From the IMG/VR virus record IMGVR_UViG_3300042924_008490, positions 61,584 through 125,583 of that record: a stretch of DNA of 64,000 bases; one strand, given 5' to 3'. The notes under the pieces were generated by a model. That model did no database searches. It was not told the DNA's origin and worked only from the letters and a program-made list of their open reading frames with translations. This document shows positions 28 to 19,748 of the stretch, one piece after another (positions within the stretch are counted from its first letter, which is position 1; every line of letters starts with the position of its first letter). Position numbers and translations under genes: made by a program. This stretch comes from a virus.

Positions 28-468
28 ATGAAAAAAAATGTTAATACACAAAATATAATTAGTACCATATTACCATATATAAAAATTAAAAAATCTGCAG
101 AAACCCCTGATTATATTAAAGGTGCAACAGATGCTACGAGTTCTTCAGAATTTAGAAGAGGTGGCGGTAGAAATCAAGGAAAATTAGGTGGTGATTATAA
201 ATCAAAATTTGGAAATGAGCCTGCAGAAGAACCTGTAACATCATCAGGAGGAAAAACTTATGCCAATTATAATGAATGGATTGGTAATGAAAGTGCAGAA
301 AATCAAAAAGCAATAGCGGTTCTTTATAGAATGGTGGAAAAAGGGAGAATGGAAGAAGATGAATTTGATTCGGAAATACAAGAATTACTAAATACTCCAT
401 TAAATGAAATTAGGAAACTTATTAAAAATGTTCTAAAAGAAACGAAGAAAAATAAATTTAAAAGATAA
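28..468 (+). CDS. Hypothetical phage protein with C-terminal LNEIRKLI tag
   Basis: The product is 146 residues, hydrophilic and glycine-rich near residues 40-65, so the first half is probably disordered. The last 25 residues contain LNEIRKLIKNVLKE, an amphipathic helix that matches the N-terminal segment of the proteins at 2954 and 16980 (SLNELKMLVKQVLREE and SLNELRLIIHNIIQE). Here the tag is at the C-terminus instead of the N-terminus. A strong hairpin terminator follows the stop. I do not recognise a family for the body of the protein. Confidence 0.75.
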   Translation: MKKNVNTQNIISTILPYIKIKKSAETPDYIKGATDATSSSEFRRGGGRNQGKLGGDYKSKFGNEPAEEPVTSSGGKTYANYNEWIGNESAENQKAIAVLYRMVEKGRMEEDEFDSEIQELLNTPLNEIRKLIKNVLKETKKNKFKR

Positions 469-485
469 AAAATATAAATCTTACA

Positions 486-519
486 AAAGAGCTTTAAAAT
501 TTAAAGCTCTTTTTTTTTG
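486..519 (+). terminator. Rho-independent terminator after the first gene
   Basis: The perfect inverted repeat AAAGAGCTTTA / TAAAGCTCTTT is followed by an uninterrupted T run, between the stop at 468 and the helicase gene. Confidence 0.85.
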
Positions 520-565
520 TTCATATGAAAACTTTTCATTACCTTTGAAAAAAAATATTTCTCAT

Positions 566-2533
566 ATGAAACTCATTCCTTCTTTTGAACCTTTCTTATT
601 TCAAAGTGATACCATAGCTAAACTATTAGAGATTGTAAAGTTTAATAATGGTGCTTGTATTTTTGATGAAACAGGTTTAGGTAAAACTATCACAGCTTCA
701 ACTACAGCCATCAATATCACTGAAGGAAAAATCAATGTGATTTCCCCAAAATCCAATCAAAAGAGTTGGAGAGATGTCCTATCAAAAACTCCAAATTTCT
801 ATGAGATTTCCACCTATGCAAAACCTTCACCTGAAAAATGTGAAGTGCTTATCATAGATGAAGCTCATAATTTAAGAAATGAAAAATCTAAATCTTTTGT
901 AAAGGTTTTTGAATTTATTAAAAGGCATAATCCTGTAGTCCTCTTGTTAACAGCAACCCCTTTTCAAAATAATATAAGAGAATTTAGAAATGTTATCTCA
1001 TTGATAAATTTCAAATCAGATACACCTGCATTGATAATGCTGCCTTCATTATTTCAAAAGGTAATAGAAGCTGAAAAGAAAATAAAAACTATCGAAAGAT
1101 ATTCAGATGATTCTTTTGAAGCAATCACTGAAACTTCTAAAATAAATTCAGTTCAAGATAAACATATAGATACTATTTCAAAAGTAGTAAATACTTTCTC
1201 CGTTAGGAATACAAGAAATTCTATTAATGAAAAATATCAATCTGATGTGAAATTGATGGGACATTTCCCAACTATTACCAAATCGAATATTGAAGCCTTT
1301 TTTAATCCTGATGAAATAATCAAAATTGGAAACATTATAGATATCTTAACCAAGATGAAATTTGCAATGCAAAACATCATCTATTATAGCAATCATCCAA
1401 GATATAAAAACCAAAACTTCTTTGGAGGATTGATGAAAACTTTCTTACTAAAACGCCTTGATAGTTCTTTGAATGCTTTCAAAAAATCAATAGAGAAAAT
1501 GTTGGTCAATGTTGAAACAGAATTACTCAAAGGAAACTATACAATTGATATAGAAGGCTCTACTTACCCTTTAAATGACCACTATGAGCTTGATTTACTA
1601 AAGGATAAAGAATACCTCCAAAAGATAAAAATTCTTTCTGAGGAGCTAAATGACAATAAAAAAGTAGAATTGTTATTTGAAATAATAAAGAATAAAAAGG
1701 CAGTTATTTTTACAGAGTATAAAGATACCCTTGAAGTAATCAATCAATATTTGGCAAAAATTTATAATAATTATATATGTTATTCATCAGAAAGCAATGA
1801 ATCTACTTTAGATTTAATAAATGAAAACTTTGATGCTAATAATGTAACCAAAAATAATATCCAAATTGTCGCTACAACAGATGTTCTTTCTGAAGGGGTA
1901 AATCTACATCAAGCAGATATACTTATTCATTTTGACCAAAAATGGAATCCAAGCAAGATTATACAACGTGAGGGTAGGGTCAATAGGATTATAAAAAATG
2001 GTGTCCATAGAGAAATTTCTATCTATCATTTTCAAGTAGATAATCTGATTGAAAGCATTATAGAATTGGATAAGAAGATTGTCACCAAACAGAATTTGGG
2101 ATATAAGTTTTTAAGAGAAGAAAAACTTGAACTCAAATGGATGAAAGATTTTAAAGCCAATGCAACCATTTTTTATCCAAATGAAAATGAAAAGGGTAAA
2201 TTCTATCAAGTATATGAAAGCTACATGGGGCATATATTTGCGGAAGAAATTGGATTGATAACAGAAAATCTTGAATTTGCAATAGATTCCTTTGAAATTC
2301 CTGATAGTTATTTTATGGAGGAGAAATATTATTCTCATTTCAATAGAAGCAATTATGTGTTAGGCAAAAGACATGAAGAATTTAATGCACTTTATAAAGA
2401 TGCTTGGTATGAAGTAGCAAAACAATATTCTACTAAAGGGTTTGAAGTTGATTTCTTTGATACTATTGAAAGACCTTTACCTGTATGTTGTGGTCTTTGG
2501 CTGAACAAAAGAAAATTTATGAGTATTAACTGA
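566..2533 (+). CDS. SNF2-like superfamily 2 DNA helicase/translocase
   Basis: The 655-residue product has the ordered motifs of a SNF2-type SF2 ATPase. Near residues 35-45 is the Walker A region DETGLGKT. Motif II is DEAH (in LIIDEAHNLRN), motif III is LTATPFQNN, and the C-terminal RecA lobe carries ATTDVLSEGVNLHQAD and the arginine-finger motif VI QREGRVNRI. Such enzymes translocate on duplex DNA; phage copies have been linked to replication, recombination or displacement of bound proteins. I chose the ATG at 566 over an in-frame TTG at 545 because ATG dominates here. The next gene starts 2 nt after the stop and is probably co-transcribed. The exact role is inference. Confidence 0.88.
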   Translation: MKLIPSFEPFLFQSDTIAKLLEIVKFNNGACIFDETGLGKTITASTTAINITEGKINVISPKSNQKSWRDVLSKTPNFYEISTYAKPSPEKCEVLIIDEAHNLRNEKSKSFVKVFEFIKRHNPVVLLLTATPFQNNIREFRNVISLINFKSDTPALIMLPSLFQKVIEAEKKIKTIERYSDDSFEAITETSKINSVQDKHIDTISKVVNTFSVRNTRNSINEKYQSDVKLMGHFPTITKSNIEAFFNPDEIIKIGNIIDILTKMKFAMQNIIYYSNHPRYKNQNFFGGLMKTFLLKRLDSSLNAFKKSIEKMLVNVETELLKGNYTIDIEGSTYPLNDHYELDLLKDKEYLQKIKILSEELNDNKKVELLFEIIKNKKAVIFTEYKDTLEVINQYLAKIYNNYICYSSESNESTLDLINENFDANNVTKNNIQIVATTDVLSEGVNLHQADILIHFDQKWNPSKIIQREGRVNRIIKNGVHREISIYHFQVDNLIESIIELDKKIVTKQNLGYKFLREEKLELKWMKDFKANATIFYPNENEKGKFYQVYESYMGHIFAEEIGLITENLEFAIDSFEIPDSYFMEEKYYSHFNRSNYVLGKRHEEFNALYKDAWYEVAKQYSTKGFEVDFFDTIERPLPVCCGLWLNKRKFMSIN

Positions 2534-2534
2534 T

Positions 2535-2891
2535 ATGGCAAAAAGAAAAAAATGGGAATCCAAAGGGGAACATAAAATAAGAAATTATTTGATTGAACAA
2601 AAGATAAAATATAACCTTCAAAAGAAGTTTGATGATTGCAAGAATGTCAGACCACTTCCTTTTGATTTTTATATTCCCAAATATAATATTTTGATTGAAT
2701 TCAATGGAATCCAACATTATGAACCTATAAATCATTTTGGTGGAGAAGAAAAATTGAAAATTCAAAAACAAAATGATGAAATCAAAAAGAAGTTTGCTAA
2801 AGAAAATGGTTATAATTTGATTGTTATAAGCTATGAAAAAGAAGATAGTATTTCTAAAATATTAGATAAGTGTTTTAAAGGTAAATCTTAA
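2535..2891 (+). CDS. Vsr/EDxHD-like PD-(D/E)XK endonuclease
   Basis: The 118-residue product begins with basic residues, then GEHKIRNYLIEQKIKY, a central PFDFYIP and IEFNGIQHY, and a late FAKENGYNLIVISYE. This is the layout of Vsr-like nucleases and related free-standing phage endonucleases, where the Glu of GE, the Asp of FDFYIP and the H of QHY contribute to the active site. The start lies directly behind the helicase stop. It could be a mobile homing-type nuclease or a DNA-processing partner of the helicase. Family assignment is by motif only. Confidence 0.72.
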   Translation: MAKRKKWESKGEHKIRNYLIEQKIKYNLQKKFDDCKNVRPLPFDFYIPKYNILIEFNGIQHYEPINHFGGEEKLKIQKQNDEIKKKFAKENGYNLIVISYEKEDSISKILDKCFKGKS

Positions 2892-2918
2892 TATTCGTAT
2901 TTTTTTATTATAATTTAT

Positions 2919-2933
2919 ATATTTATAATAAAA
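2919..2933 (+). promoter_or_regulatory. A/T-rich late-promoter-like motif
   Basis: ATATTTATAATAAAA lies 20 nt upstream of the ATG at 2954. The same or nearly the same motif precedes genes at 8177, 9996, 13237, 13367, 13426, 18639, 32036, 33173 and 47411, always in the sense orientation. It has no TAnnTTTG element beside it. The promoter role is inferred from recurrence and position. Confidence 0.6.
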
Positions 2934-2953
2934 TTAACTTAAATAGAAAAAAT

Positions 2954-3226
2954 ATGAATATTTCATTGAATGAATTAAAAATGCTTGTTAAACAAGTTTT
3001 GAGAGAAGAAAATTCTAAAGAAAATTCTAAAGAAAAATATCCCGATAAAAAACCTGAAATCTCGTTAAATATTACTGATTCTTTAAAAAGCCTATTAAAT
3101 AAATTTAGTACGTCTCAAATATTAGATGCTATGGCAAATCATTATAAATCTAAAAATGAAGATACTACTGCTTCTAAATTAAAAAAAGTTTCTAACCAAC
3201 TGAGAAAAGATATTTATGGTTATTAA
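2954..3226 (+). CDS. Small tagged hypothetical protein
   Basis: The product has 90 residues. It opens with MNISLNELKMLVKQVLREE, one of the two recurrent tags of this genome, followed by a Lys/Glu-rich linker and a helical domain (residues 35-85: LNITDSLKSLLNKFSTSQILDAMANHYKS). No family was recognised. It lies 9 nt upstream of the tagged zinc peptidase and probably shares its transcript. Confidence 0.75.
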   Translation: MNISLNELKMLVKQVLREENSKENSKEKYPDKKPEISLNITDSLKSLLNKFSTSQILDAMANHYKSKNEDTTASKLKKVSNQLRKDIYGY

Positions 3227-3235
3227 TAAAATCAA

Positions 3236-3652
3236 ATGAAATTACTTATCACTGAAGAACAATATAATTTAGTTTTCAAAAATAGCCCAATAGTTTCCAA
3301 TGATATCAATGAAAAACTCCCATTGATAAAAACATTTGTAGATTTTTGCAAAGAGAATCTATCTATAAATGATAAAATTAAAGTTCTTTTGACTGATAAA
3401 AAATCTAAAACAAAAACCTTTGCACATTTTTCTCCTGCTGAAAGTAGTTTGACAGTCTATATAAAGAATAGACATATTGGTGATGTGTTAAGAAGTATCG
3501 CTCATGAACTAAAACACCATCAACAAAACTTAAATGGTATATTAACATCTTCATCAGGAGAAGATGGTTCTCCTGAAGAAAATGAAGCAAATTCATTTGC
3601 AGGAGTTATGATGAGAAAATTTGGTAAACAGCATCCTGAAATTTTTGAATAA
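3236..3652 (+). CDS. Tagged small zinc metallopeptidase
   Basis: This 138-residue protein starts with the tag MKLLITEEQYNLVF. The zincin signature HELKH is at about residues 97-101 (IAHELKHHQQN), followed by EENEANSFAG, whose second Glu fits the third zinc ligand of gluzincin-type enzymes about 25 residues downstream. It is much shorter than a cellular protease, as is common for phage zincins. It could be a maturation protease or act on host proteins; the substrate is unknown. The same tag is found on an unrelated second zincin at 14543-15328. Confidence 0.8.
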   Translation: MKLLITEEQYNLVFKNSPIVSNDINEKLPLIKTFVDFCKENLSINDKIKVLLTDKKSKTKTFAHFSPAESSLTVYIKNRHIGDVLRSIAHELKHHQQNLNGILTSSSGEDGSPEENEANSFAGVMMRKFGKQHPEIFE

Positions 3653-3699
3653 ATTTTAAAAAAATATCATAAAAAATTTTTTATTTCAAAATAAAGTCC

Positions 3700-3707
3700 T
3701 ATCTTTA
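3700..3707 (+). promoter_or_regulatory. Bacteroidota -7 element (TATCTTTA)
   Basis: TATCTTTA lies about 50 nt upstream of the gene at 3759, in the non-coding gap after the peptidase. The leader contains ACTTAAATTTATTTACC just before the ATG. Confidence 0.6.
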
Positions 3708-3758
3708 CATTACGCTGTTAGCAACTTAATCATTTTTTACAACTTAAATTTATTTACC

Positions 3759-4163
3759 ATGAGAAACTTAATGCTGTCTTTTGCAATTATTTTTGCTACA
3801 ATTGTTAATGTGTCTGCTCAAGATACTCTTGTTACAAATGTTAGAAATGTCTTAGGTGAAAATTTCAAAGAATACACTGAAAGAATTGACTACAAAATCG
3901 TAATTGATAAAGATTACAAAAAGCTTTCTTTCATTGGAACGAAAAAGAATACAAGTTTTGAAGTCGAATTGGTTTCTTTGGAAGAAACAATTTCCGATGA
4001 ATTCGGAAAAATTATGACATTCAAAACTAAAGGTACTGAAAAAGTAAACATTTTCTTTGAAATGAACGAGCTTTCAGTTATTTCTATTGAAAAGTCTCCA
4101 ACGGATATTATTTATTTTCTTTTCTCTAAATTCCCTAACGATTTCCCTAAAGCTTCAAAATAA
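3759..4163 (+). CDS. Secreted hypothetical protein
   Basis: The 134-residue product begins with a signal peptide (MRNLMLSFAIIFATIVNVSAQ, likely cut after residue 20 or 21). The mature part is rich in beta-prone alternating residues (SFIGTKKNTSFEVELVSL) and has no cysteines. It has its own TATCTTTA promoter, like the early genes at 21938 and 31588, which also encode exported proteins. Function unknown; a cell-envelope location is inferred. Confidence 0.72.
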   Translation: MRNLMLSFAIIFATIVNVSAQDTLVTNVRNVLGENFKEYTERIDYKIVIDKDYKKLSFIGTKKNTSFEVELVSLEETISDEFGKIMTFKTKGTEKVNIFFEMNELSVISIEKSPTDIIYFLFSKFPNDFPKASK

Positions 4164-4167
4164 ATAT

Positions 4168-4287
4168 ATGAACTCAAATGAAACCGAAGAACTTTCTTTG
4201 GAAGAAATAGCCCAAGATGTAACAACGGATGGTGAAAGCTATTTCACCATTTCGTTTTGGAGTGAACTCTCAAAAGCCGAATTATGA
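4168..4287 (+). CDS. Small acidic protein upstream of DHFR
   Basis: This is a 39-residue acidic protein (MNSNETEELSLEEIAQDV...). Its stop overlaps the DHFR start as ATGA (4284-4287), which suggests translational coupling. It begins 5 nt after the preceding stop. No family was recognised. Confidence 0.55.
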   Translation: MNSNETEELSLEEIAQDVTTDGESYFTISFWSELSKAEL

Positions 4288-4775
4288 ACCTTTCGATAAT
4301 AGCTTGTATTGACCTCAATAGAGCTACCTCAGATAATAATACTTTGCCTCTTTGTAAAAAACATCAAAGAAAGTTAAAAAGGTTAACAAAATTCAATACA
4401 GTTTTGATGGGGAGAAAAGCACAAGATTTTTTCCAAAAACCTTTTGTTGCCACAAGAAATGTTATTTTCTCCAAGGATAAAAAATATTGTAAGCCAAATA
4501 CACATGTTATTTATAATTTTGAAAATGGCTTGAATATTCTTGAATTTTGGAAGAAAGAATTATTTTTCATTGGAGGCAACTCAACCTTCAAAAAAGCATT
4601 TCCATACTGTGATAAATTATATCTTACAGAATTACAAACTACTTTTGAAAATCCTGATAGCTTTCTTCCCGAAATCGACCCAAAAGAATGGAAACTTGTT
4701 TCTGAAGAATTTCACGAAAAAGACATTTGGAATGAATATGATTTCAAATTTAAAGTCTATGAGAGATTAGATTAA
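4284..4775 (+). CDS. folA: Dihydrofolate reductase
   Basis: DHFR reduces dihydrofolate to tetrahydrofolate with NADPH, supporting thymidylate and purine synthesis during phage replication. The 163-residue product matches the usual length. Recognisable blocks are SIIACIDLNRATSDNNTLPL (substrate and Met20-loop region), VLMGRKAQDFF (NADPH site), RNVIFSKD, LFFIGGNSTFKKAFPYCDKLYLTEL (the GG of the cofactor loop) and SFLPEIDPKEW. The usual LPW is LPL here. The gene overlaps the 39-residue gene upstream by 4 nt and is convergent with the minus-strand gene ending at 4772. Confidence 0.9.
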   Translation: MNLSIIACIDLNRATSDNNTLPLCKKHQRKLKRLTKFNTVLMGRKAQDFFQKPFVATRNVIFSKDKKYCKPNTHVIYNFENGLNILEFWKKELFFIGGNSTFKKAFPYCDKLYLTELQTTFENPDSFLPEIDPKEWKLVSEEFHEKDIWNEYDFKFKVYERLD

Positions 4776-5311
4776 ATACTAACCTTGTAATAAACTTTTA
4801 TTTTGAATGTGCCATTACCAATAATAACATTTCCTTGTGAATGAATATATAAACCTGTATTCCTTAGATAAGGAACATGATTCCAAGGAGTATATGAACA
4901 AGTTATAACGTCTTCAGTTGCAGCCATTAAATTATTTTTCATTTCATAAAAATTATAACTGTTTACATAAGGCATTGATACACTTGTTTTAAATTGAAAC
5001 CAAATAGCTTTACTCGGATTGTAAATTGTATTATGACTTAATTCTATTACAATACGATTTATTTCATAATATTCATTTGAAGCCAAATTAGCTTCATCTA
5101 AAACTTGAATAGGTGTAGTATCTATATTAAACAAATCTAACTCATCAACAAATACTGTTTTCAAATCCCATAAATCTATATTGTTTGTGATATAATTTGT
5201 AGCATTTGATAATAAAAATTTTTGATTAACTCCATTGTTTTGAGTGTAAACTTCTTCAGTACCATCTAAAACAGGTCTTACAGGAAAATCATTTGGTTTT
5301 ATCTGTGGCAT
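4772..5311 (-). CDS. Fibre-adaptor-like structural protein, paralogue 1
   Basis: The 179-residue product starts PQIKPNDFPVRPVLDGTEEVYTQNNGVNQKF. The pattern 'LDGxEExYTQxNGVxxKFxL' resembles the N-termini of many phage tail-fibre and baseplate-attached proteins. It is the third of three adjacent paralogues (with 5314-5859 and 5861-6418), which share this head and the stretch LNxNEYYEINRxVxE. It is last in the minus-strand transcript and meets DHFR tail to tail (4-nt overlap at 4772-4775). A virion role is inferred from family pattern and neighbours. Confidence 0.75.
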   Translation of the reverse strand: MPQIKPNDFPVRPVLDGTEEVYTQNNGVNQKFLLSNATNYITNNIDLWDLKTVFVDELDLFNIDTTPIQVLDEANLASNEYYEINRIVIELSHNTIYNPSKAIWFQFKTSVSMPYVNSYNFYEMKNNLMAATEDVITCSYTPWNHVPYLRNTGLYIHSQGNVIIGNGTFKIKVYYKVSI

Positions 5312-5313
5312 AA

Positions 5314-5859
5314 TTAACTTACGATTTTGTAATAAATTTTTATAGTATAATCTGTATCACCTTCTTCCATATTTCCTCCATCCATATCTAAATAAACTCC
5401 GTGATTTCTTCGGAAGACACTTGCAGTATAAGGTGAATAAAAACATAATACACTATCATAAGAAGTCTCAATAAAATTATCAGGAACTTTATAATAATAT
5501 TCAGTAGTATTTAATGCAGTATATCTCGTAGGCTTATATGAAATTAAAGCATCAAAATTACATATCATAGCAGCCCCATTAAATTTAGATTCTATAATAA
5601 CTCTATTTATTTCAAAATATTCATTTAATCCTAAATCTGCCTCATCTAATATAATTACAGGATTAGCTAAAATATCATATGCATCAATAGAATCTATAAA
5701 AATTTCTTTATACAACCATTCATCAGCATACTGTGTTACATATGAAGCCAAAGCTCCTAAAGTAAATTTTTCACTGACTCCATTAGTTTGCGTATAGATT
5801 TCTTCAGAACCATCCAAAACAGGTCTAACAGGAAATGTACTTGGTTTTCTTATGGACAT
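5314..5859 (-). CDS. Fibre-adaptor-like structural protein, paralogue 2
   Basis: The product has 181 residues and the same head (SIRKPSTFPVRPVLDGSEEIYTQTNGVSEKFTL) and tail (DYTIKIYYKIVS) as its two neighbours, with a divergent middle. It is separated by 2 nt from the gene downstream and 1 nt from the one upstream, so the three are one operon. The variable centre could be the receptor- or partner-binding part; this is inference. Confidence 0.75.
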   Translation of the reverse strand: MSIRKPSTFPVRPVLDGSEEIYTQTNGVSEKFTLGALASYVTQYADEWLYKEIFIDSIDAYDILANPVIILDEADLGLNEYFEINRVIIESKFNGAAMICNFDALISYKPTRYTALNTTEYYYKVPDNFIETSYDSVLCFYSPYTASVFRRNHGVYLDMDGGNMEEGDTDYTIKIYYKIVS

Positions 5860-5860
5860 C

Positions 5861-6418
5861 CTAAGATTTTATTTTGTAATAAATTTTTATTTTGAAGACC
5901 GTATCTCCACCGTTACTTGCAGTTAAAGAAGAATCTATATACAAGCCTGTTAATTTTACATAATGCTCAATTATGGCAGGAGAATATAAACAGTAAATTA
6001 TATTCTCGTTACATTCTATCAGAGTATTAGGAAGATTTATAAATATAGAATTGTCAGGGAATGCATTTCCTATAGGAATTGAATTAGATGTTTTAAAGAG
6101 CACATATATATCATCAAGTAGCTTATGTGCAGTACTATTATAATCTGCTTCAAATACTAATCTATTGACCTCATAATATTCATTAGTATTCAAATCATTC
6201 TCACTCAATAATTCAAATTTGGTTGTTGGCAAAGCATCCAAATCTGCACCTGTCATATAAACCTCCTTATATAACCAAGTGTCAATATTCTGAGTTATAT
6301 AAGTACTTACCTGATTCAATGTGAATTTCTCATTGATATCATTTGTTTGTGTATAAATTTCCTCTGAGCCATCCAAAGATAGCTTCAGAGGAAATGTATT
6401 TGGTTTTATGTTTGACAT
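5861..6418 (-). CDS. Fibre-adaptor-like structural protein, paralogue 3
   Basis: The product has 185 residues, beginning SNIKPNTFPLKLSLDGSEEIYTQTNDINEKFTL and ending KIKIYYKIKS. It is the first of the three tandem copies and follows the GP88-like gene by 4 nt. The copies look like products of gene duplication followed by divergence of the central 100 residues. Confidence 0.75.
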   Translation of the reverse strand: MSNIKPNTFPLKLSLDGSEEIYTQTNDINEKFTLNQVSTYITQNIDTWLYKEVYMTGADLDALPTTKFELLSENDLNTNEYYEVNRLVFEADYNSTAHKLLDDIYVLFKTSNSIPIGNAFPDNSIFINLPNTLIECNENIIYCLYSPAIIEHYVKLTGLYIDSSLTASNGGDTVFKIKIYYKIKS

Positions 6419-6422
6419 GTTG

Positions 6423-8177
6423 TTAATGCATTAAATTTATTACCATTTTTGTACTTGGATATATTGCAGCATCATCACCTGAACCTTTAGGTACAATTAC
6501 GTAATATTTCATTTCTTGCCCAATTCTTATCTCAAAACTTTTTCGCATTTCATCATAATAAATGATATCACTAATTTCAACATCCTTATCATGTATTCTT
6601 TTCAAATATGCTTGCATTTGTTCTTTGAAATCATTTTTGAAAAATGGCATCAATTCTTTTATTTTAGCTTTTATATCGCTTACTGTTGAAGGAGTCAAAT
6701 CTACATTTTTCATTCCCATGTAATTTTCACCAAAACTTCTTAATACTTCATTATTATTTGCACCCCCTTTATCAATATTAAATATATAATTTAAATCTTC
6801 AAATTTTTCATTATATGGTTTATCAGTGATAGGATTCATAAAATTAGTTCCATCAGGACTAATGGCATCTTTTACAGGTCTATTTGCAGCATCAGTTGCT
6901 TGAATTTCTTTATATTTTCTTACTTCTTTTTTACTTGCTCCTCCAACAGAATATATTGCAAAATCTTTTTTTGCATCCCATACCCCTCTGATATCTGCAC
7001 TTATTTGAGCAATTTTTGTGTAAGTAGTTGTAGTAATGTTAACTCCTTTTGCTCTTAATCTTCTTACTACATTCGAGCCAATTGTTACATATTCCTCACT
7101 AAACCAATCTCCTGAATCATTCCATCTTAAAACAATTTTATTACTATCATTCATGAATTTTATTAAGTATTTATCGTATTCTTCTTTTAACATCTCTATA
7201 GCATCTGAATCGCTAAAATCAGGATTCTTACGCTTAATATTGCTTATTGCATCTTTATGAATGGATATAAATTGGTTTATTGCAGAATTCATCTTTTTTT
7301 CTGTAATTATTGCTCCTTTCAATTCAGCTAATGAATATAATTCGTTAAAAAATTTATCTTCATAACCTTGAGGGTCATTAATCATGAAATTTAATCTTCT
7401 TATCATGATATCATAAGCTCCAAAAAAACGTGTATAATTACTTGATAATGCATAACAGAAGGTGGCACATGAGCCACGACCTGGGCATGTTTCAATCATC
7501 TCAAATCTATCCTCAGCTCTATTATAAATAATAGCACCAACAGCAGGAATACCTGTATTTACCACAAATTCATTTGCAGCTCCCGATTTCATCATTTTTG
7601 CATTTTTACCAATAATACTATTAGGTAAAACCATCAAATTCTTTTTAAAATTTTCTATGTCCACTGCCAAACCATCATGAACCTTTGAAAGATGTGCTAT
7701 TTTTGCCTTTATTATTTTTTCATAATTTTCAGCATCGCCATTATTTTTAGATTGCCTATATTTTTTATAAATTTCATCTAATTCTTTTTTTAATTGAGAA
7801 ATTATTTTATTTTCTTTTTCAGAAGCTCCTTCTTCATCTTTAAATAATTTTGATTTACTATGGATAAAAGGTTGTGCTATTGTAAATTTAATACCTTTTA
7901 ATTTAGAAAATTCGCTATCATTAATAAATCTTTTATATTTATCATCCAATTTAATTGCATTTTTTCTTATTGAATTTATGAATCCTGTAACATCTTGATG
8001 ATTCAAACAGACAGTGCCTTGACCTACTTTTAAATTTTCATCAATATTAACACTTTCAAACAAATTTTTTAATCTTGATTTTTCTTTGCAAGACCTGCAA
8101 TTAGCCCTTAGAAGTCTTAACTTTTTTTCATTTAAAAAATCAACATATTGCTCTTCAGTCAAAATTATTTTTCTCAT
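6423..8177 (-). CDS. Tagged GP88-like protein
   Basis: This 584-residue protein starts with the tag MRKIILTEEQYVDFL. A basic region with CRSCKEKSRLKNLF follows (a CxxC pair near residue 27). The centre carries ETCPGRGSCATFCYALSS (three cysteines) and RWNDSGDWFSEEY, the pattern of the phage GP88 family (named after mycobacteriophage gene product 88). The Cys-x6-Cys-x3-Cys spacing could bind metal or an Fe-S cluster, but the biochemical function is not established. A shorter relative is at 38374-39120. An A/T late-promoter-like motif lies 8 nt upstream. Confidence 0.72.
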   Translation of the reverse strand: MRKIILTEEQYVDFLNEKKLRLLRANCRSCKEKSRLKNLFESVNIDENLKVGQGTVCLNHQDVTGFINSIRKNAIKLDDKYKRFINDSEFSKLKGIKFTIAQPFIHSKSKLFKDEEGASEKENKIISQLKKELDEIYKKYRQSKNNGDAENYEKIIKAKIAHLSKVHDGLAVDIENFKKNLMVLPNSIIGKNAKMMKSGAANEFVVNTGIPAVGAIIYNRAEDRFEMIETCPGRGSCATFCYALSSNYTRFFGAYDIMIRRLNFMINDPQGYEDKFFNELYSLAELKGAIITEKKMNSAINQFISIHKDAISNIKRKNPDFSDSDAIEMLKEEYDKYLIKFMNDSNKIVLRWNDSGDWFSEEYVTIGSNVVRRLRAKGVNITTTTYTKIAQISADIRGVWDAKKDFAIYSVGGASKKEVRKYKEIQATDAANRPVKDAISPDGTNFMNPITDKPYNEKFEDLNYIFNIDKGGANNNEVLRSFGENYMGMKNVDLTPSTVSDIKAKIKELMPFFKNDFKEQMQAYLKRIHDKDVEISDIIYYDEMRKSFEIRIGQEMKYYVIVPKGSGDDAAIYPSTKMVINLMH

Positions 8178-8184
8178 TGTTATT

Positions 8185-8199: not shown

Positions 8200-8205
8200 T
8201 TTGTT

Positions 8206-10237: not shown

Positions 10238-10250
10238 ATTTTTAATTATT

Positions 10251-13237: not shown

Positions 13238-13241
13238 TTTA

Positions 13242-13367
13242 TTATATTTTATTATAAATATTATAGGTTCTGCTTATTTTTATATTTATCCGAAAATAAT
13301 TACCTTTTAGTTTACTTAATTCATCTAAAATGGCATACATCGTAGCAGGATTTTTACTGTAAGGCAT
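13242..13367 (-). CDS. Very small ORF upstream of the fibre operon
   Basis: The 41-codon frame reads MPYSKNPATMYAILDELSKLKG and ends RTYNIYNKI. An A/T late-promoter-like motif ends 4 nt upstream of its start, and its last codons overlap the similar motif used by the fibre gene. No family was recognised. The start is plausible but not proven. Confidence 0.5.
   Translation of the reverse strand: MPYSKNPATMYAILDELSKLKGNYFRINIKISRTYNIYNKI
13247..13261 (-). promoter_or_regulatory. A/T-rich late-promoter-like motif
   Basis: On the minus strand this reads ATATTTATAATAAAA, 9 nt upstream of the fibre gene start at 13237. Confidence 0.6.
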
Positions 13368-13371
13368 ATTT

Positions 13372-13386
13372 TTTTATTATAAATAT
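13372..13386 (-). promoter_or_regulatory. A/T-rich late-promoter-like motif
   Basis: On the minus strand this reads ATATTTATAATAAAA and precedes the 41-codon frame starting at 13367. A diverging copy for the plus strand is 20 bases to the right. Confidence 0.55.
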
Positions 13387-13405
13387 TTCAATTTCTGTTA
13401 TTATC

Positions 13406-13420
13406 ATATTTATATTAAAA
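13406..13420 (+). promoter_or_regulatory. A/T-rich late-promoter-like motif
   Basis: ATATTTATATTAAAA ends 5 nt upstream of the ATG at 13426. With the minus-strand motif at 13372 it forms a divergent pair. Confidence 0.55.
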
Positions 13421-13425
13421 TTGTT

Positions 13426-13719
13426 ATGGCTGAATATTTCAAAAAGAAAATTATAGGAAAACTCTCAGAGAAACCTATAATCGTCAAAAAAATCACCCCT
13501 CAACCTAAAACCGAAACAATTAACCCAATTGTTGAAGAGGAATCTCCAAAAGAAGAAATTGAAATTTCTGTTGAAGAAATTCAAATCTCTATTGAACCTG
13601 AAACAATTTCAGAAGAACCTATTACAGTTCCGAATGAAACTGTAATTGTTTCCGAAGAACCCGAAGTTCCTCTTGAAGAATCAACACCAAAAAAATCAAG
13701 AAAGAAAAAAATACAATAA
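13426..13719 (+). CDS. Glu/Pro-rich low-complexity protein
   Basis: The 97-residue product has basic ends (FKKKIIGK and KKSRKKKIQ) and an acidic middle rich in Glu, Pro, Ile and Val (for example EEIEISVEEIQISIEPE). It is almost certainly disordered or extended. It is an isolated plus-strand gene inside the minus-strand late block, with its own motif and terminator. Function unknown; a scaffold or linker is possible. Confidence 0.7.
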   Translation: MAEYFKKKIIGKLSEKPIIVKKITPQPKTETINPIVEEESPKEEIEISVEEIQISIEPETISEEPITVPNETVIVSEEPEVPLEESTPKKSRKKKIQ

Positions 13720-13723
13720 AAAA

Positions 13724-13750
13724 AAGGGGCTGCTCAATTGAACAGCCCTT
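13724..13750. terminator. Hairpin terminator
   Basis: The stem GGGCTG / CAGCCC encloses CTCAATTGAA. The flanking A and T/A runs could let it serve both the plus gene ending at 13719 and the opposite strand. Confidence 0.7.
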
Positions 13751-13809
13751 ATATATTTCCCTTTGAAAATATCTCAACTCAATTTTGTAACAAAAATGGT
13801 AAATATTTG

Positions 13810-14145
13810 TTACATCTCATCTTCACATCCACAATCTTCAACCTCATTCATCATGAAATCAAAAACTTGGTCTAAATTGTTCTTTGCAACAGCCACGTGG
13901 TCTTCAGCCCAATCATGACCGTTCTGAAGAATACCTTCAATCTCCTCTCTATCCAATTCCATCAAAAGCTCAATCTGTCTTTTCATCTGTTGCAAATTGG
14001 AAAAAAACATATAATTTTCAGTCAATTCCCCTTGCTTGCTTTTGACTTTCATCATATTTCCCTTTGAAACCATACCCATTTCATTTGAACCCATCTCATC
14101 AGAAACCATTTCTCTGATAATTCTTTTAAAATCATTCATTCTCAT
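13810..14145 (-). CDS. Small protein with variant tag
   Basis: The 111-residue product starts MRMNDFKRIIREMVSDE, a likely variant of the SLNELRxLI tag seen elsewhere. The body is Met/Glu-rich and helical, and it ends in CGCEDEM. Its start overlaps the stop of the two-TM gene upstream by 4 nt. No function was recognised. Confidence 0.68.
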   Translation of the reverse strand: MRMNDFKRIIREMVSDEMGSNEMGMVSKGNMMKVKSKQGELTENYMFFSNLQQMKRQIELLMELDREEIEGILQNGHDWAEDHVAVAKNNLDQVFDFMMNEVEDCGCEDEM

Positions 14146-14477
14146 AACTCTTGTGGATTTTGTGGTAATTGTTCTGTTCCAATTGAAGGCATCTGCTCAA
14201 CTGCTTGTGGAATTTCCTTTGAAACCACTTTTCTCTCCCTTGATTTTCTGAATCCTAACAAACCTGCTCCAATACCAACAAATATGATGCTCTGCGTGAT
14301 AACATCAATATCCTTGTTCAAAAACATCTTGTCAACACATCCCATCAAAAAACAAAGCGTTCCAATGACACATATCAAAACTCCCATAGTTCCCGATGCA
14401 GATGTCTTACCATTCTCATTTGAAGTCATTTGCCCAAATGAAAATCTTTCAATCATACTCTTTAATACTTGTTTCAT
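14142..14477 (-). CDS. Two-TM membrane protein
   Basis: The 111-residue product has two hydrophobic segments, about residues 31-47 (MGVLICVIGTLCFLMG) and 60-76 (TQSIIFVGIGAGLLG), joined by a short polar loop. A basic patch (FRKSRERK) and a Pro/Gln-rich tail follow. The topology would suit a holin or another inner-membrane protein, but no lysis genes are adjacent. A copy of the 56-bp repeat, containing a promoter-like A/T motif, lies immediately upstream. Confidence 0.7.
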   Translation of the reverse strand: MKQVLKSMIERFSFGQMTSNENGKTSASGTMGVLICVIGTLCFLMGCVDKMFLNKDIDVITQSIIFVGIGAGLLGFRKSRERKVVSKEIPQAVEQMPSIGTEQLPQNPQEL

Positions 14478-14486
14478 AATTTTATC

Positions 14487-14542
14487 TTTTTACATATATA
14501 AATATAGGGCAATGGTCAGAAACTTTTCTCGTATCACTCAAA
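14487..14542 (-). repeat. 56-bp direct repeat, copy 1 (remnant of nuclease C-terminus)
   Basis: It matches 15367-15422 with one mismatch. On the minus strand it encodes LSDTRKVSDHCPIFIYVK, the last residues of the DNase I-like protein, but without the rest of the gene. It also contains CCTATATTTATATATG, which resembles the late-promoter motif, 15-20 nt upstream of the gene at 14477. Confidence 0.85.
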
Positions 14543-15328
14543 TTATTTTTTATGCAAATCCCAATACCCATATAATGCCTTCAATATTCTACGCTTGTCA
14601 CCATCCCTCAATGAATCAAACCTCATAATAACACTCTTCTTAAACTTATCAAGCAAATCCTCAAAACTCATCCCATCCCTAAATATATCCGCCATCGTCT
14701 GACTGAACCTCGCCCAATACTCATGTGGTAAACTTAAATATACTTGATACTCCTCATCACTCATATCATTTTCACCCCTTTTGTTATAAAAAGCAACACT
14801 CCTCTTGTCTGATACATACTTTCCACCACTCCTATAAGCATCATAAGCATGCTGCAACTCATGAATCAATGTACTTCTAAAGGAGATTCCCATAGCCTTC
14901 TTAAGAATCTGTTCAGCTTCCGATGAACTAATATCATCAGCCTTCTCGTAAAACCCAACCTGATATACCAAACTACCCTCAAAATCTTTATTATATTTTA
15001 TTTTAACATTCCCATCATAAACCCCCTTCATACGCTTGTTTTTATCTTCATAAAAAACTATATTAACTGAAGAATTCTTGATAAAATCACCTAACAAATC
15101 ATACAACCCCCCATCAGTAATTTCAACCAAACTGATATAGTCACTGTTAAAATAACCATCAACAGGAAGACCTGCATCTATCTGCTTCTTAACCCTCTTG
15201 ACAACAGATAAGTTTTCTTTTGAAAATTTAGCTATAACCTCTTCGGCTAACTTTCGAAGCTCCCCCTGCTCATTGATACCCTCAAAAAGAATTCTATACT
15301 GACCCTCTGTTAATATTAGCTTTTTCAT
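14543..15328 (-). CDS. Tagged zinc metallopeptidase
   Basis: The 261-residue product starts with the tag MKKLILTEGQYRILFEG. The zincin motif HELQHAYDAYRSGG is near residues 158-171, and PHEYWARFSQTMAD about 45 residues later may supply the third ligand (Glu). The middle contains GVYDGNVKIKYN. It is unrelated to the zincin at 3236 outside the tag and HExxH. It sits between two copies of a 56-bp repeat that comes from the end of the nuclease gene upstream, so it may be a later insertion. Confidence 0.8.
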   Translation of the reverse strand: MKKLILTEGQYRILFEGINEQGELRKLAEEVIAKFSKENLSVVKRVKKQIDAGLPVDGYFNSDYISLVEITDGGLYDLLGDFIKNSSVNIVFYEDKNKRMKGVYDGNVKIKYNKDFEGSLVYQVGFYEKADDISSSEAEQILKKAMGISFRSTLIHELQHAYDAYRSGGKYVSDKRSVAFYNKRGENDMSDEEYQVYLSLPHEYWARFSQTMADIFRDGMSFEDLLDKFKKSVIMRFDSLRDGDKRRILKALYGYWDLHKK

Positions 15329-15361
15329 CTTAATACCTAAATATAATTACTTTAGTAACTA

Positions 15362-16219
15362 TCATTTTTTTACATATATAAATATAGGGCAATGGTCAGA
15401 AACTTTTCTCGCATCACTCAAACGAACAAATTTTTTGTAAAAATGCAAAACCCCACTTGAACCAACCTTTACCTTTCTTGAAACAAAAAAATTGTCATAC
15501 TCCTCATTCAACCACTCTCCCCCCTCTTTCATCTTCAATGATGTCCTTTCACCTTTAAACCCAACATTGCACCATACCTTCATCCCATCAAAAGACCTAT
15601 CCCTCTCAGACAAATTAAAGTCACCCATCAATATGAATTTCTTATTCTTATATTTACCTCCAAGAGAACCCAATTCCTTAACCTCCAATGAAGGATTCTT
15701 TTCTTTCGGAACTAAATGAACATTCCCTAAGATATACTCATCAACACCATCAACCAAAAACTTTCCAATATATGGCTCTCTGTTCACAACAGAAGCCAAA
15801 GTAGCTTCCAATGAATGACTAACCAACTTCACCCTATCTTTCCTAAACAAATATGCATACCTCTCTGAACCACTTCCACTCGTGGGATTAGATATAACAT
15901 AATCCCATGAAGCCCCACTTCTATCCAATAAATCATCCAACTTCGCAACAGCCTGTGAACCAAATTCCGAAACAGATACCTCTTGAACTGCAACAATATC
16001 ATAAGAACTCATAATACCACTGATAAAAACCATAACAGAATCATTTGCCATCTTAGACTTTCCAAAATTCTGTATATTCCACGAAAGTATACGCAATTCC
16101 TTTGAATCACTTCTTCCCTTTGAAGCAAAGCTTTGCTGACCAAAGGCTTCAGCCTTTGAAACCAAATTTGCTCCTATGAATATAAAAACTAATACAATTA
16201 TGACAACTATTTTCTTCAT
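15362..16219 (-). CDS. Secreted DNase I-like (EEP family) nuclease
   Basis: The 285-residue product carries a signal peptide (KKIVVIIVLVFIFIGANLVSKAEA, cut near residue 25). It then has all blocks of the endonuclease/exonuclease/phosphatase fold: ILSWNIQNFG, VAVQEV (metal-binding Glu), LGNVHLVP, ILMGDFNLS (catalytic Asp/Asn) and KVSDHCPIFI (catalytic Asp/His). It should be a metal-dependent nuclease acting outside the cytoplasm, perhaps on extracellular or periplasmic DNA. An exported nuclease is unusual in a phage. The last 18 codons are duplicated at 14487. Confidence 0.87.
   Translation of the reverse strand: MKKIVVIIVLVFIFIGANLVSKAEAFGQQSFASKGRSDSKELRILSWNIQNFGKSKMANDSVMVFISGIMSSYDIVAVQEVSVSEFGSQAVAKLDDLLDRSGASWDYVISNPTSGSGSERYAYLFRKDRVKLVSHSLEATLASVVNREPYIGKFLVDGVDEYILGNVHLVPKEKNPSLEVKELGSLGGKYKNKKFILMGDFNLSERDRSFDGMKVWCNVGFKGERTSLKMKEGGEWLNEEYDNFFVSRKVKVGSSGVLHFYKKFVRLSDARKVSDHCPIFIYVKK
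15367..15422 (-). repeat. 56-bp direct repeat, copy 2 (inside the nuclease gene)
   Basis: This is the intact copy, encoding the C-terminus of the DNase I-like protein. It also places the A/T motif about 40-60 nt upstream of the peptidase gene starting at 15328. Confidence 0.85.
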
Positions 16220-16224
16220 TATCC

Positions 16225-16980
16225 TTAAACTTCTACTTGAATGTTTGTATGAGGTATTTCAGGCGCATTTTTCAACGATTTCCATATATACCATGTTGTA
16301 GCTTGAAGTGCTTGCAATCCCACTCCCAATTTATTCGCAGCAGTTCTATAATCATCCATGATTTTCATCCGCATTTTAGTGGAAATTGTTGGAGTCATTT
16401 TTATATTTCTCTTGATACCATACCAAATGTTTATAGCATGAGAATCTAATACCAATGCATCTTTTGTGTAATCAGGGTCAATGAGAGATTTTAAAAATAC
16501 GGATACCTTCGGCCCTCGCACATATCCAATATCTCCACTCTCTAAAATTTTAATAGCCTTCTCTACATTTTTACCATATGCATTAATATTTTTTCGAATC
16601 TCAGGATTTTTAAACATCTGAATGACATTATCTGCAGCTACGAGATTTGCCTTCCATTTATTCCCAGGAGAAAGTACCGCCACAACCGCAGCAGTCACCA
16701 CAAAATCAATATCATGTCTCTGTGCCAAATTTTGAACATTTTCTTTTGAATTATAATACCATCTCCCCCAAAAATCTTTTTCCTCCTCCTCAGCTTCATT
16801 ATACACCGCCATTATATTGGCAACTCCACGACCCTCATCCTGAGAAATACCTATATCCGAAATATTCCTATTATTCTTTCTCTTAGGCTCAACATAATCC
16901 TCATATTCAGTAATATCCTCAAAATTCTCTTGAATAATATTATGGATAATCAACCTTAATTCATTTAAACTTATTTTCAT
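16225..16980 (-). CDS. DUF7178-like phage protein with LNELR tag
   Basis: The 251-residue product starts at the ATG at 16980 with KISLNELRLIIHNIIQENFED, one of the two tags. The body contains VAVLSPGNKWKANLVAADNVI, VSVFLKSL, ALVLDSHAINIWYG and LQATTWYIWK. These blocks recur in a phage protein family that I recall as DUF7178, of unknown function. The fold may be related to helix-hairpin-helix DNA glycosylases, but that is a guess. An upstream in-frame ATG at 17013 is less likely because it would put the tag inside the protein. Confidence 0.72.
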   Translation of the reverse strand: MKISLNELRLIIHNIIQENFEDITEYEDYVEPKRKNNRNISDIGISQDEGRGVANIMAVYNEAEEEEKDFWGRWYYNSKENVQNLAQRHDIDFVVTAAVVAVLSPGNKWKANLVAADNVIQMFKNPEIRKNINAYGKNVEKAIKILESGDIGYVRGPKVSVFLKSLIDPDYTKDALVLDSHAINIWYGIKRNIKMTPTISTKMRMKIMDDYRTAANKLGVGLQALQATTWYIWKSLKNAPEIPHTNIQVEV

Positions 16981-16985
16981 ACGAC

Positions 16986-17783
16986 TTATTTCATTTTTAT
17001 AATTGTAAAACATGTTATCGACTTAGGTGAATATGCCTTCAACGCCAAACATACCTCATCAAGCGTTGCCCCCGATGTCAAATAATCATCAAAAAGAATT
17101 ATATCCTTGTCCATAATGGACTTTATATATGCAGAATTAACCTCTATCCACCCCTTGAAAAATTTTCTGTACTGTGGCTGTATCTTCTTTATCTCAAACT
17201 CACCACGCTGCTTTGCCTTCTCAACCTCTTTCCTCAAACTACCCAATATGTCCGAACCAAAACGCTCTATATCCTCATCAGGAATAACCAACTCAAGCAT
17301 ATCAATATTTTTCTTAATCGAATCAGGCAAAAATTTCAAAGAAATATTCGATACTTTTCCCACAGTCCTCTCAGCTATATCCCTGACCAATGAAGATGAT
17401 GACCCCATGCAAAACACAGAATCAACTTTCATACGATTCATCTCCTTCGCAAAAAATATCGCACTCCTGTTGATAAACCTATCATACTCCTCATCTGAAA
17501 TACTATATGAACTGCTCTTACGCTTCAATCCCTTTAATACATCTGTTAGACTCTTATCCTCAACAGAACCCTTCTTATATACCGATATAACCTTGACCCC
17601 CGATTGTGGTAATGTTGTAACCCTCGCTTCAAATTTAACATTCTTTGATGACTTCCCCAAAGATGTATCAATATATTTTTGATTTCCCTTGTCAGTCACA
17701 TCCAACTTCATCTGACCATCATCCCCAATCTCAATCCCCTCAATGAACCCATATTGAGCCTCCGTAATAATTATTCTTCTCAT
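16986..17783 (-). CDS. Tagged phosphoribosyltransferase-like protein
   Basis: The 265-residue product starts with the tag MRRIIITEAQYGFIEG. Near its C-terminus is DIILFDDYLTSGATLDEV, the type I phosphoribosyltransferase PRPP loop. The upstream VFCMGSSSSLVRDIAER fits the hood/diphosphate region. It probably binds PRPP; ComF-like or nucleotide-salvage roles are possible. The tag-coding DNA is nearly identical to that of the next gene at 18550, although the proteins are unrelated. Confidence 0.8.
   Translation of the reverse strand: MRRIIITEAQYGFIEGIEIGDDGQMKLDVTDKGNQKYIDTSLGKSSKNVKFEARVTTLPQSGVKVISVYKKGSVEDKSLTDVLKGLKRKSSSYSISDEEYDRFINRSAIFFAKEMNRMKVDSVFCMGSSSSLVRDIAERTVGKVSNISLKFLPDSIKKNIDMLELVIPDEDIERFGSDILGSLRKEVEKAKQRGEFEIKKIQPQYRKFFKGWIEVNSAYIKSIMDKDIILFDDYLTSGATLDEVCLALKAYSPKSITCFTIIKMK
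17742..17783 (-). repeat. Near-identical tag-coding DNA, copy 1
   Basis: The minus-strand segment encodes RIIITEAQYGF and is the same at the base level as 18509-18550 except for a three-base insertion near the start codon. Confidence 0.75.
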
Positions 17784-17791
17784 ATATTAAT

Positions 17792-18550
17792 TTATTTTAA
17801 ATCTTCATAAGTTATATTTTCAAAATCTGATATGTCTTTATACTCATTATTCATCAATCCATTTAATACCTGTGCCATTATATAAGGATTCGTTAGAACC
17901 ACATGCTTTTTAACAAGCATATCTCTAAATATCATCGAAATAACAAGATTATCATTTGAATATGCCCCCAATTTATCTAACATATCTTTTAAATCATCTG
18001 TTACAGTAAAAACTATATTGTCATACTTAATTAATTCCTTTATTATCTCAATACCCTCTCTTATACTCTTAGGTGCAAAATGTGATGGTTTAAAAAATCC
18101 ATTTGAATATTTACCAATAATGTAACTTTCATTATTTTCAAATAATAATAACGTACCTGAATTTAAATAATTCGCAAACCTATCTAACGATAACGCAGAA
18201 TCAGGTCTGTTACGCTCCATAGCATTTTTATAATTAAACCACATCTTATATACAATGTTATCTTTTAATTTAGAAAATAACTCAGATTGACCTTGTTTAT
18301 AATCAAAATCATCATCATAGTTATAAGCATCTTCTAAATCATAATATAATTCAATAATTGTATTTATTTCGTCTTCATATTTATTTGGATTTTCTAAATC
18401 AGATTCCTCCAATTTACCTAAAATACCAACACCCTTTTTCTTTATTAAAGATTCATATCTCCTAACAACATTTTTTAATAAAGTATTTTCAGTAATATTT
18501 TTATATGAAGTTATAAACCCATATTGAGCCTCCGTAATAATTATTCTCAT
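17792..18550 (-). CDS. Tagged hypothetical protein
   Basis: The 252-residue product starts with MRIIITEAQYGFITS and is otherwise Asn/Asp/Tyr-rich and mostly helical, with LLFENNESYIIGKYSNGFFKPSHFAP in the middle. No family was recognised. It is the first gene of the minus-strand late block. The gap upstream holds AATAAATATTCC, an imperfect A/T late motif. Confidence 0.7.
   Translation of the reverse strand: MRIIITEAQYGFITSYKNITENTLLKNVVRRYESLIKKKGVGILGKLEESDLENPNKYEDEINTIIELYYDLEDAYNYDDDFDYKQGQSELFSKLKDNIVYKMWFNYKNAMERNRPDSALSLDRFANYLNSGTLLLFENNESYIIGKYSNGFFKPSHFAPKSIREGIEIIKELIKYDNIVFTVTDDLKDMLDKLGAYSNDNLVISMIFRDMLVKKHVVLTNPYIMAQVLNGLMNNEYKDISDFENITYEDLK
18509..18550 (-). repeat. Near-identical tag-coding DNA, copy 2
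   Basis: This is the partner of 17742-17783. The identity covers the tag codons only and stops in the body of each gene. Confidence 0.75.
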
Positions 18551-18616
18551 ATAAATTTAGTTTTTTAAAATTATATCATTACCTTTGTAACAATAAATAT
18601 TCCTCCTAAAACAAAT

Positions 18617-18631
18617 ATATTTATAATTAAA
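18617..18631 (+). promoter_or_regulatory. A/T-rich late-promoter-like motif
   Basis: ATATTTATAATTAAA ends 7 nt upstream of the ATG at 18639. Confidence 0.55.
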
Positions 18632-18638
18632 TTTTCAA

Positions 18639-19748
18639 ATGAAAAAAATAATTATCTCAGAAAGCCAATATAAACTCCTTTTTGAAAATCTGAACTACGA
18701 AGAACTTAACAACCTCAAAAGATTTTTAGACTCTGAAAACGAATCTAACGTGCAAATAGGTATCCAAATACTCGATGCCAACGAATATCCTATCATAAAT
18801 TTTATAAAGAAGTTTTATTCTAAATACGAAAAATTTTCCAACGAATTACTAAATAATCTTCCAAATGAAACCATTTTAGAACTTCTGAAAAATGGATTTT
18901 CTTTGGAACAATTCCCAATCAAAAGATTTTTAGACTCCGAAGAAGAATCTAAAGTGCAATTAGGTATCCAAATACTCGATGCTAACGAATATCCTATCGC
19001 AGATTTTATAGAGGAGTTTTATTCTAAAACCATCCATAGACCATTCTCTAATACACTACAAAATAATCTTCCAAATGAAACCATTTTGGAACTTCTGAAA
19101 AACGGATTCCATTTGGAACAATTCCCAAAAATAAAACCAAATACACAAAGGGAATATATCCAATATTGTATAGAAGAAGGTGTCAAACTTCCTGAAAATA
19201 CCGTAGATTATCTTGAAGACTCTCTAAAAGATTCTTATATAAATTCAAGAATCCAAAAAGCAATCCAACTGAAAGAAGAAAATCCTCGATATGACTTCTA
19301 CCAATTCTTCAACGGTGTAGAATATGCCTATATCTCCAACGAACAAATGTTCTCCCTCGGAGAAGTTGGAATCATCATAGATACCTTTACCATAGAATTT
19401 ATCAACAAAACCTATCCCAAAAAATTGGAAAATTATATCAATGGCTATATAAACAATATCACCAATGAAGATTATCATACCGTAGATGAAACCCTGTTAG
19501 ATTTCTTCAATGAAAATAACCTTAAACTTTATGTAAACTCCACCGATACCTTAGAATCAAATGTATTATACCAAATGAGCAAAGTATCCAAACCACTGCT
19601 CTCAAAATATCTCAAAAATAAAATCCAACAAGCTATAGAAAATGACGAATTCCTTGGAAATAATGAAGATGATTATTTTGAAGATGTCGATGACCAAAAT
19701 CTCGTAAATCAATACTACGAAAAATTTAAAGAATATTATGAAGATTGA
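18639..19748 (+). CDS. Tagged protein with two internal repeats
   Basis: The 369-residue product starts with the tag MKKIIISESQYKLLFEN. Two direct repeats of about 70 residues follow (about 27-95 and 96-167), each with RFLDSExESxVQxGIQILDANEYPI and NNLPNETILELLKNGFxLEQFP. The rest is acidic and helical, ending in a Glu/Tyr/Asp cluster. The repeats look like helical solenoid (HEAT- or ankyrin-like) units. Function unknown; protein binding is likely. Confidence 0.75.
   Translation: MKKIIISESQYKLLFENLNYEELNNLKRFLDSENESNVQIGIQILDANEYPIINFIKKFYSKYEKFSNELLNNLPNETILELLKNGFSLEQFPIKRFLDSEEESKVQLGIQILDANEYPIADFIEEFYSKTIHRPFSNTLQNNLPNETILELLKNGFHLEQFPKIKPNTQREYIQYCIEEGVKLPENTVDYLEDSLKDSYINSRIQKAIQLKEENPRYDFYQFFNGVEYAYISNEQMFSLGEVGIIIDTFTIEFINKTYPKKLENYINGYINNITNEDYHTVDETLLDFFNENNLKLYVNSTDTLESNVLYQMSKVSKPLLSKYLKNKIQQAIENDEFLGNNEDDYFEDVDDQNLVNQYYEKFKEYYED

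Follow-up and report, generated by a model that had tools for sequence, protein, structure and literature searches.

Why should proteins with otherwise unrelated bodies carry the same short peptide at one end? The question is raised by a window of 64,000 nucleotides that spans positions 61584-125583, the right half, of a virus record of 125,583 bases, and in which an earlier note had described two peptide tags on unrelated phage proteins. We fetched the left half, listed the open reading frames (ORFs) across the entire record, and computed the tags, protease gene, site enrichment, modularity, linker sites and shared upstream motif described below. On comparative evidence, we consider it highly probable that the tags are capsid-targeting sequences (CTSs) of a T4-type head assembly, and that their carriers are packaged and cut. 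Coordinates refer to the window unless preceded by "record".

Table 1. Tags of the window and genes of the head cluster
Feature	Gene	Position	Strand	Remarks
C-terminal tag 2 LNEIRKLIKNVLKE	291-aa protein	400..441	+	
N-terminal tag 2 MNISLNELKMLVKQVLRE	2954-3226, 90-aa protein	2954..3007	+	predicted cut after LRE
N-terminal tag 1 MKLLITEEQYNLVF	3236-3652, zincin-like metallopeptidase (HELKH)	3236..3277	+	phrog_87
N-terminal tag 1 MRKIILTEEQYVDFLNE	6423-8177, GP88-family protein	8127..8177	-	PF17338; predicted cut after LNE
N-terminal tag-2-like MRMNDFKRIIREMVSDE	13810-14145, 111-aa three-helix protein	14095..14145	-	relatives have other tags
N-terminal tag 1 MKKLILTEGQYRILFE	14543-15328, zincin-like protein (HELQH)	15281..15328	-	
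N-terminal tag 2 MKISLNELRLIIHNIIQE	probably 16225-16980, DUF7178 protein	16927..16980	-	predicted cut after IQE
N-terminal tag 1 MRRIIITEAQYGFIE	16986-17783, phosphoribosyltransferase-like protein	17739..17783	-	
N-terminal tag 1 MRIIITEAQYGFITSYKNITE	17792-18550, hypothetical 252-aa protein	18488..18550	-	
N-terminal tag 1 MKKIIISESQYKLLFE	18639-19748, 369-aa repeat protein	18639..18686	+	predicted cut after LFE
Head-cluster 479-aa protein		record 33552-34991		zincin motif 127, DUF5872 201-280, phrog_27331 303-343, phrog_7595 385-464
gp23-family shell protein		record 35100-36923		E 2e-71
Acidic scaffold candidate		record 36960-38336		
gp21-family prohead protease		record 38390-40246		PF03420, E 1e-13; intein-interrupted
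gp20-family portal		record 42294-44813		E 1e-62; intein also present
Terminase		record 44841-46619		

We defined tag 1 as φφφ[T/S]ExQ[Y/F] and tag 2 as [S/T]LNELR..[IV]..[IV][LI].E, and obtained chance expectations by shuffling every protein 500 times. The proteome-wide search that the earlier note had proposed, run on the record, found strict tag 1 in eight ORFs (seven N-terminal and one C-terminal) and tag 2 at four sites in three ORFs, against 0.012 expected for each in shuffled proteins. Beyond the window, tag 1 is also found at the N-terminus of the record's first ORF (complement of <1-180, truncated by the record end) and forms the C-terminus of the ORF at record 2545-3030. The conserved tag residues are encoded by differing synonymous codons among the copies, and the similarity is therefore kept at the protein level.

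Every tag listed by the earlier note was present at the gene it named, with some adjustments. The protein at 28 does end with tag 2, but this position marks only its C-terminal half; the full protein (record 61176-62051) starts 408 bases 5' of the window and bears tag 2 at both ends. The gene at 16225 carries tag 2 as described, though its start is most likely 16980, which makes the tag N-terminal and removes the overlap with the preceding gene. The protein at 13810 fits tag 2 only loosely as a variant; its family does bear tags. That the bodies are unrelated was borne out by Pfam and PHROG matches, which differ among them and begin after the tag; a short N-terminal head common to unrelated bodies is also a feature of CTSs. 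The PF23802 match of the DUF7178 protein (16225) spans only residues 63-245, and the PF00156 match of the phosphoribosyltransferase-like protein lies slightly under the cut-off. Relatives of the zincins were few, none of the GP88-family protein were found among annotated phages, and a fold search with the 13810 body returned a single weak match, to an uncharacterised phage protein. Heads of the IITExQY and LTExDLxRIVKRV kinds occur on many unexplained genes of large environmental phages; among open-access papers, we found no literature on these heads in phages of this kind.

The T4-type head cluster sits in the record's left half, where gp20, gp21, gp23 and terminase genes lie together as in a T4-like head assembly module. 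The closest isolate shell proteins are those of Microcystis phage Mel-JY01 and Flavobacterium phage immuto_2-6A. A 184.5-kb IMG/VR relative (G001), whose shell protein is 77% identical, was fetched with further relatives as a comparison set. Heads in immuto_2-6A begin MENFDLKKFLVENKLT.., MKKSQLRQIIKEAL.. and MKKQILSEQFRRMQKLAGIITE...

The T4 protease gp21 cuts C-terminal to glutamate, with the consensus L/I-X-E (PMC9026906; consensus and CTS background also from PMC3012670 and PMC5694885). In the window, an L/I-x-E at the head's end, as in CTSs, is clear in the proteins at 6423, 14543, 18639, 2954 and 16225 and less clear in those at 3236 and 16986; in several tag-1 proteins the nearest φxE is oddly placed, 16 residues downstream in the case of 3236. 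We then considered 63 non-redundant proteins with a tag-1-class core, collected from the record itself, its relatives and a set of 44 IMG/VR contigs retrieved with a degenerate DNA pattern. [LIVMF]xE occurred no more than 13 residues past the core in 54 of them. When the post-core residues were shuffled, 24.2 ± 3.5 of the 63 had a site (maximum 38 over 2000 shuffles), and 20% of internal windows of the same proteins contained one. The 44 contigs were matched by a loosened tag-1 pattern, compared with 5 for a control pattern in which E and Q were replaced; the initial, stricter pattern had matched one. Tag ends read LFE|N, LNE|K, INE|Q, LKE|N and IQE|N. The shell propeptides of this record and most relatives have L[FY]E|N and usually [LIV][NV]E|[QSTA] directly before the mature shell domain, and these propeptide ends resemble T4's IFE|N and LTE|A. 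In T4 the motif lies at LTE65|A in gp23, IAE10|A in IPII and IPIII, ITE19|A in IPI, LRE10|S in gp24 and ITE6|L in Alt, the positions at which these substrates are cleaved.

In a proteome-wide, tag-blind test, we compared how often ORFs of a phage have [LI]xE at residues 8-27 with the frequency in internal windows of the same ORFs. The ratio was 1.23-2.19 in eleven protease-bearing phages, with one exception at 0.91; in five phages without the protease it was 0.77-1.36, with no significant rise (Mann-Whitney p = 0.007 between the groups). The protease-bearing contig that showed no N-terminal excess is G068. Among tag-positive contigs of 100 kb or more, 16 of 20 carried the protease, versus 5 of 9 background contigs, a difference that is not significant (p = 0.18) because the protease is common in large contigs generally; its presence or absence was therefore dropped as proof. 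Tag classes A-C showed no excess in T4, and no clear tag-class excess was seen in crAss001 and phi14:2, Bacteroidota phages with other heads. A contig drawn via a random 15-mer (G066) turned out to bear the same tags. The idea that tags mimic the scaffold C-terminus reached significance only in immuto (top of 217 C-termini) and not in six other phages, and is thus not claimed as general.

The heads are exchanged between phages. The 13810-14145 body has 410 IMG/VR relatives, of which 80, representing 45 distinct sequences, were kept. The conserved body is preceded mostly by unrelated short heads of at least six tag types, among them LTESxL-, MDNLEGIIKNQL-, MDNIKKLIKKHLN- and MKVIKLKENDLRKYI-type heads and, further, MINPTIKRIIETAIKE- and MRNIDNIIRKVIKE-type heads; [LIVMF]xE lies inside the head in 28 of 38 short-headed members. 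A homologous body carries an LTEEDI head in the relative G046, where some 40 ORFs are tagged as judged by eye, and an IITEEQL head in L014. Heads on GP88 and zincin bodies also differ from phage to phage. A model of the 13810 protein built from 32 sequences has a separate helix (residues 3-19) and a three-helix body (45-104; block means 75-92), with pLDDT below 50 in the linker (17-40). Tags belonging to a folded domain in each protein had been named as evidence against a tag function; in this sole usable model, the helix stands apart from the body. The single-sequence structure of the zincin at 14543-15328 (pLDDT 37) was unusable.

Most 13810-family members have a second domain, phrog_27331. 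The linker is unconserved except for [ILMV]xE, present in all 29 relatives (29/29) and followed by G, A or S at P1' in 28 of the 29. In the 479-aa protein of the head cluster, such sites fall at or between domain borders (LNE202|S, INE301|T, IKE361|S, LNE378|S and LQE386|A). Given φxE linkers between domains, the cargo seems to include precursors cut by the protease into separate domains.

In the 60 bp upstream of each gene, the motif ATATTTAT is present for 7 of 8 tagged genes, for 10 of 22 genes of the head cluster and for 2 of 85 genes in the right arm (Fisher 3e-8), which upholds the earlier placement of nearly all tagged genes in the late-type part; its enrichment in other phages is weak. 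A reading as the T4 late promoter was rejected: ATATTTAT is the reverse complement of T4's TATAAATA, and we therefore refer to it only as a shared motif. In 11 of 13 large contigs, no more than 4 kb separates the swapped-tag gene of the 13810 family from the gp23 gene.

The T4-like Synechococcus phage S-CREM2 encodes a gp21-type protease, and its virion proteome has been published (PMC10665884). The pattern [FYL]..F[LIMF]xE occurs among the first 30 residues of seven S-CREM2 ORFs (for example, the head MKNFSSFLTE|A), and six of the seven are virion proteins, versus 50 of 210 ORFs overall (p = 8e-4); as this motif was picked with the virion list in view, in a distant phage with a different tag, we take the result as support and not as proof. 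The six are a SAM hydrolase, a kinase, a Cas9-like nuclease, a cytidylyltransferase and two hypothetical proteins. Targeting and N-termini are unmentioned in that paper.

Among the roles proposed in the earlier note, sorting into the capsid by protease-cleaved packaging tags is supported by the gp21-type protease in the record and by L/I-x-E sites, which follow the tags and are also seen in the shell propeptide; the exchange of tags between phages, co-regulation with head genes and the S-CREM2 virion proteins point the same way. The tags could instead bring proteins to the prohead or its core and stay uncut. The φxE would then merely end an amphipathic helix, as part of which it can be read, and in T4 targeting and processing are separable, with Asp at CTS position 10 stopping cutting but not packaging (PMC9026906). 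We regard uncut tags as unlikely: 28 of 29 interdomain linkers, which are outside any tag, keep φxE|[G/A/S], shell propeptides hold the same motif, and the N-terminal [LI]xE excess appears only where the protease is present.

It is very unlikely that the tags sort proteins elsewhere, whether to a phage compartment, the membrane or the tail. Some cargo bodies would be plausible at several sites, but the tags are short and, read directly, charged, with no hydrophobic run of signal-peptide length, unlike the record's real signal peptide (15362-16219). One tagged family adjoins gp23, the record's tail fibres use a different N-terminal module, and the compartment raised in the earlier note found no support here. 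Least probable of all, and very improbable, is that the heads have no targeting role and are left over from duplicated gene starts or assist translation initiation. Most copies do directly follow the start codon, and A-rich gene starts help translation. Against this stand the C-terminal copies (record 2545-3030 and record 61176-62051), the synonymous codon divergence between copies, and the swapping of unrelated tag sequences on one body.

Our preferred reading, packaging by cleaved tags, suggests the following course. Tagged proteins would be made late in infection alongside head proteins. As a short strand-plus-helix or an amphipathic helix, the tag would bind the assembling prohead core, with the scaffold as its likely receptor, and take the attached enzyme into the prohead. 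The gp21-family protease would cut after φ-x-E at the tag end and, in some cargo, at φ-x-E|[G/A/S] interdomain linkers, while the shell propeptide would be cut by the same enzyme. The freed zincins, GP88 proteins, phosphoribosyltransferase-like proteins and others would stay in the virion and, as we infer from T4, would probably be ejected into the host with the DNA. By analogy with T4 internal proteins and Alt, we lean towards the view that these proteins enter the host by injection and act on it. With about the same reserve, we favor the idea that many T4-type phages, especially of this kind, run a general cargo-loading code, in which several families of swappable terminal tags, together with φxE|[G/A/S] linkers, would serve to load dozens of enzymes per phage into the head and cut them for delivery; if so, the injected proteome is predictable from sequence. 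Were the tags packaging signals, virion-carried and probably first-injected proteins, where counter-defence and takeover functions are expected, could be listed from sequence, and the tags could be used to load chosen proteins into phages of non-E. coli hosts.

The principle of cleaved packaging tags is already known from T4. Its internal proteins bear an N-terminal CTS of 10-19 residues that directs them into the prohead core and is then removed; the first ten residues of IPIII are sufficient, targeting and cutting rely on distinct residues, and processing affects both ends of Alt (PMC9026906). T-even internal proteins diverge widely, and the CTS alone is conserved (PMC3012670). Like the CTSs of IPI, IPII, IPIII and Alt, the tags here are short N-terminal heads on unrelated bodies with L/I-x-E at the head's end, in a genome with a gp21-type protease, gp23 shell and gp20 portal, and the protein at record 61176-62051 would be cut at both ends as Alt is. 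Comparison with MKTYQEFIAE revealed no sequence homology. What the two share is architecture and a cleavage motif, and we therefore read the tags as working like a T4 CTS, with homology not claimed. Unlike T4, this phage and its relatives have different tag sequences, at least two families per phage, swapping between phages, C-terminal copies, zincin, GP88 and phosphoribosyltransferase-like cargo, and multidomain cargo whose linkers hold sites; what is new here is the tag families, their swapping, the copies at C-termini, the cleavable cargo and the scale.

Phages phiKZ and SPN3US, whose ejection proteins are processed, have a diverged gp21-type protease, which cuts after x-x-E, and in SPN3US the N-terminal 15 residues of two paralogues are identical (PMC5694885), much like the shared tags here; several SPN3US propeptides exceed 100 residues, however, and there is no family of swappable 15-20-residue heads. 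In phage P1, the N-terminal 30 residues of DarB are enough to package a reporter, but for the Dar proteins the authors found no consensus head (PMC9024508), in contrast to the tags here. Polyvalent proteins, zincin-rich, multidomain and predicted to be packaged and injected (PMC5512222), resemble the cargo described here. For their zincins self-processing has been proposed, whereas the linkers described here fit the prohead protease, and targeting heads are present on the cargo.

The module KPNNFPxRPxLDGTEExYTQT..KFTL, carried N-terminally by six tail-fibre-like ORFs and also found in G001 (a 184.5-kb IMG/VR relative), is distinct from tags 1 and 2, the short terminal tags read as capsid-targeting sequences. 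It is probably a fibre attachment domain rather than a packaging tag. The gene at 15362-16219, whose neighbours are tagged, encodes an endonuclease/exonuclease/phosphatase-family protein that lacks a tag and has a start resembling a signal peptide.

Features of the tail-fibre and head genes ("record", numbering of the whole virus record, outside the window except where noted)
Feature	Coordinates	Characteristics
Tail-fibre-like ORFs (n=6)	4772-6418 (window); record 24966-32277	common N-terminal module, bodies differing
Head-cluster polyprotein	record 33552-34991	zincin motif, DUF5872, two small phage domains
Prohead protease gene, intein-bearing	record 38390-40246	Pfam Intein_splicing + LAGLIDADG
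Portal gene, intein-bearing	record 42294-44813	Pfam Intein_splicing

The domains of the polyprotein are separated by L/I-x-E sites, the cleavage consensus of the gp21-family prohead protease, and its small domains reappear in relatives, combined differently. Of the two inteins, that of the protease gene gave the LAGLIDADG match (Pfam search). The protease ORF of G001 is shorter (about 256 aa), a length consistent with absence of the intein there.

An expanded family of ~20 short ORFs (type MENLNxKIxxQLxxQLDxQL..QLKTQMKDGK) lies in tandem at about 53700-61060. Short repeats at 20368-20872, which yield overlapping low-complexity ORFs (YTTYPHLRI / RIYVVY), are probably non-coding.

Upstream of late genes throughout the record, for example before 2954, 8177 and 18639, lies the motif ATATTTAT. 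Head genes have it in common with the tagged ones, and few genes of the right arm (an 85-gene comparison set) carry it; it is likely a late promoter element. T4's TATAAATA, reverse-complemented, reads TATTTATA.
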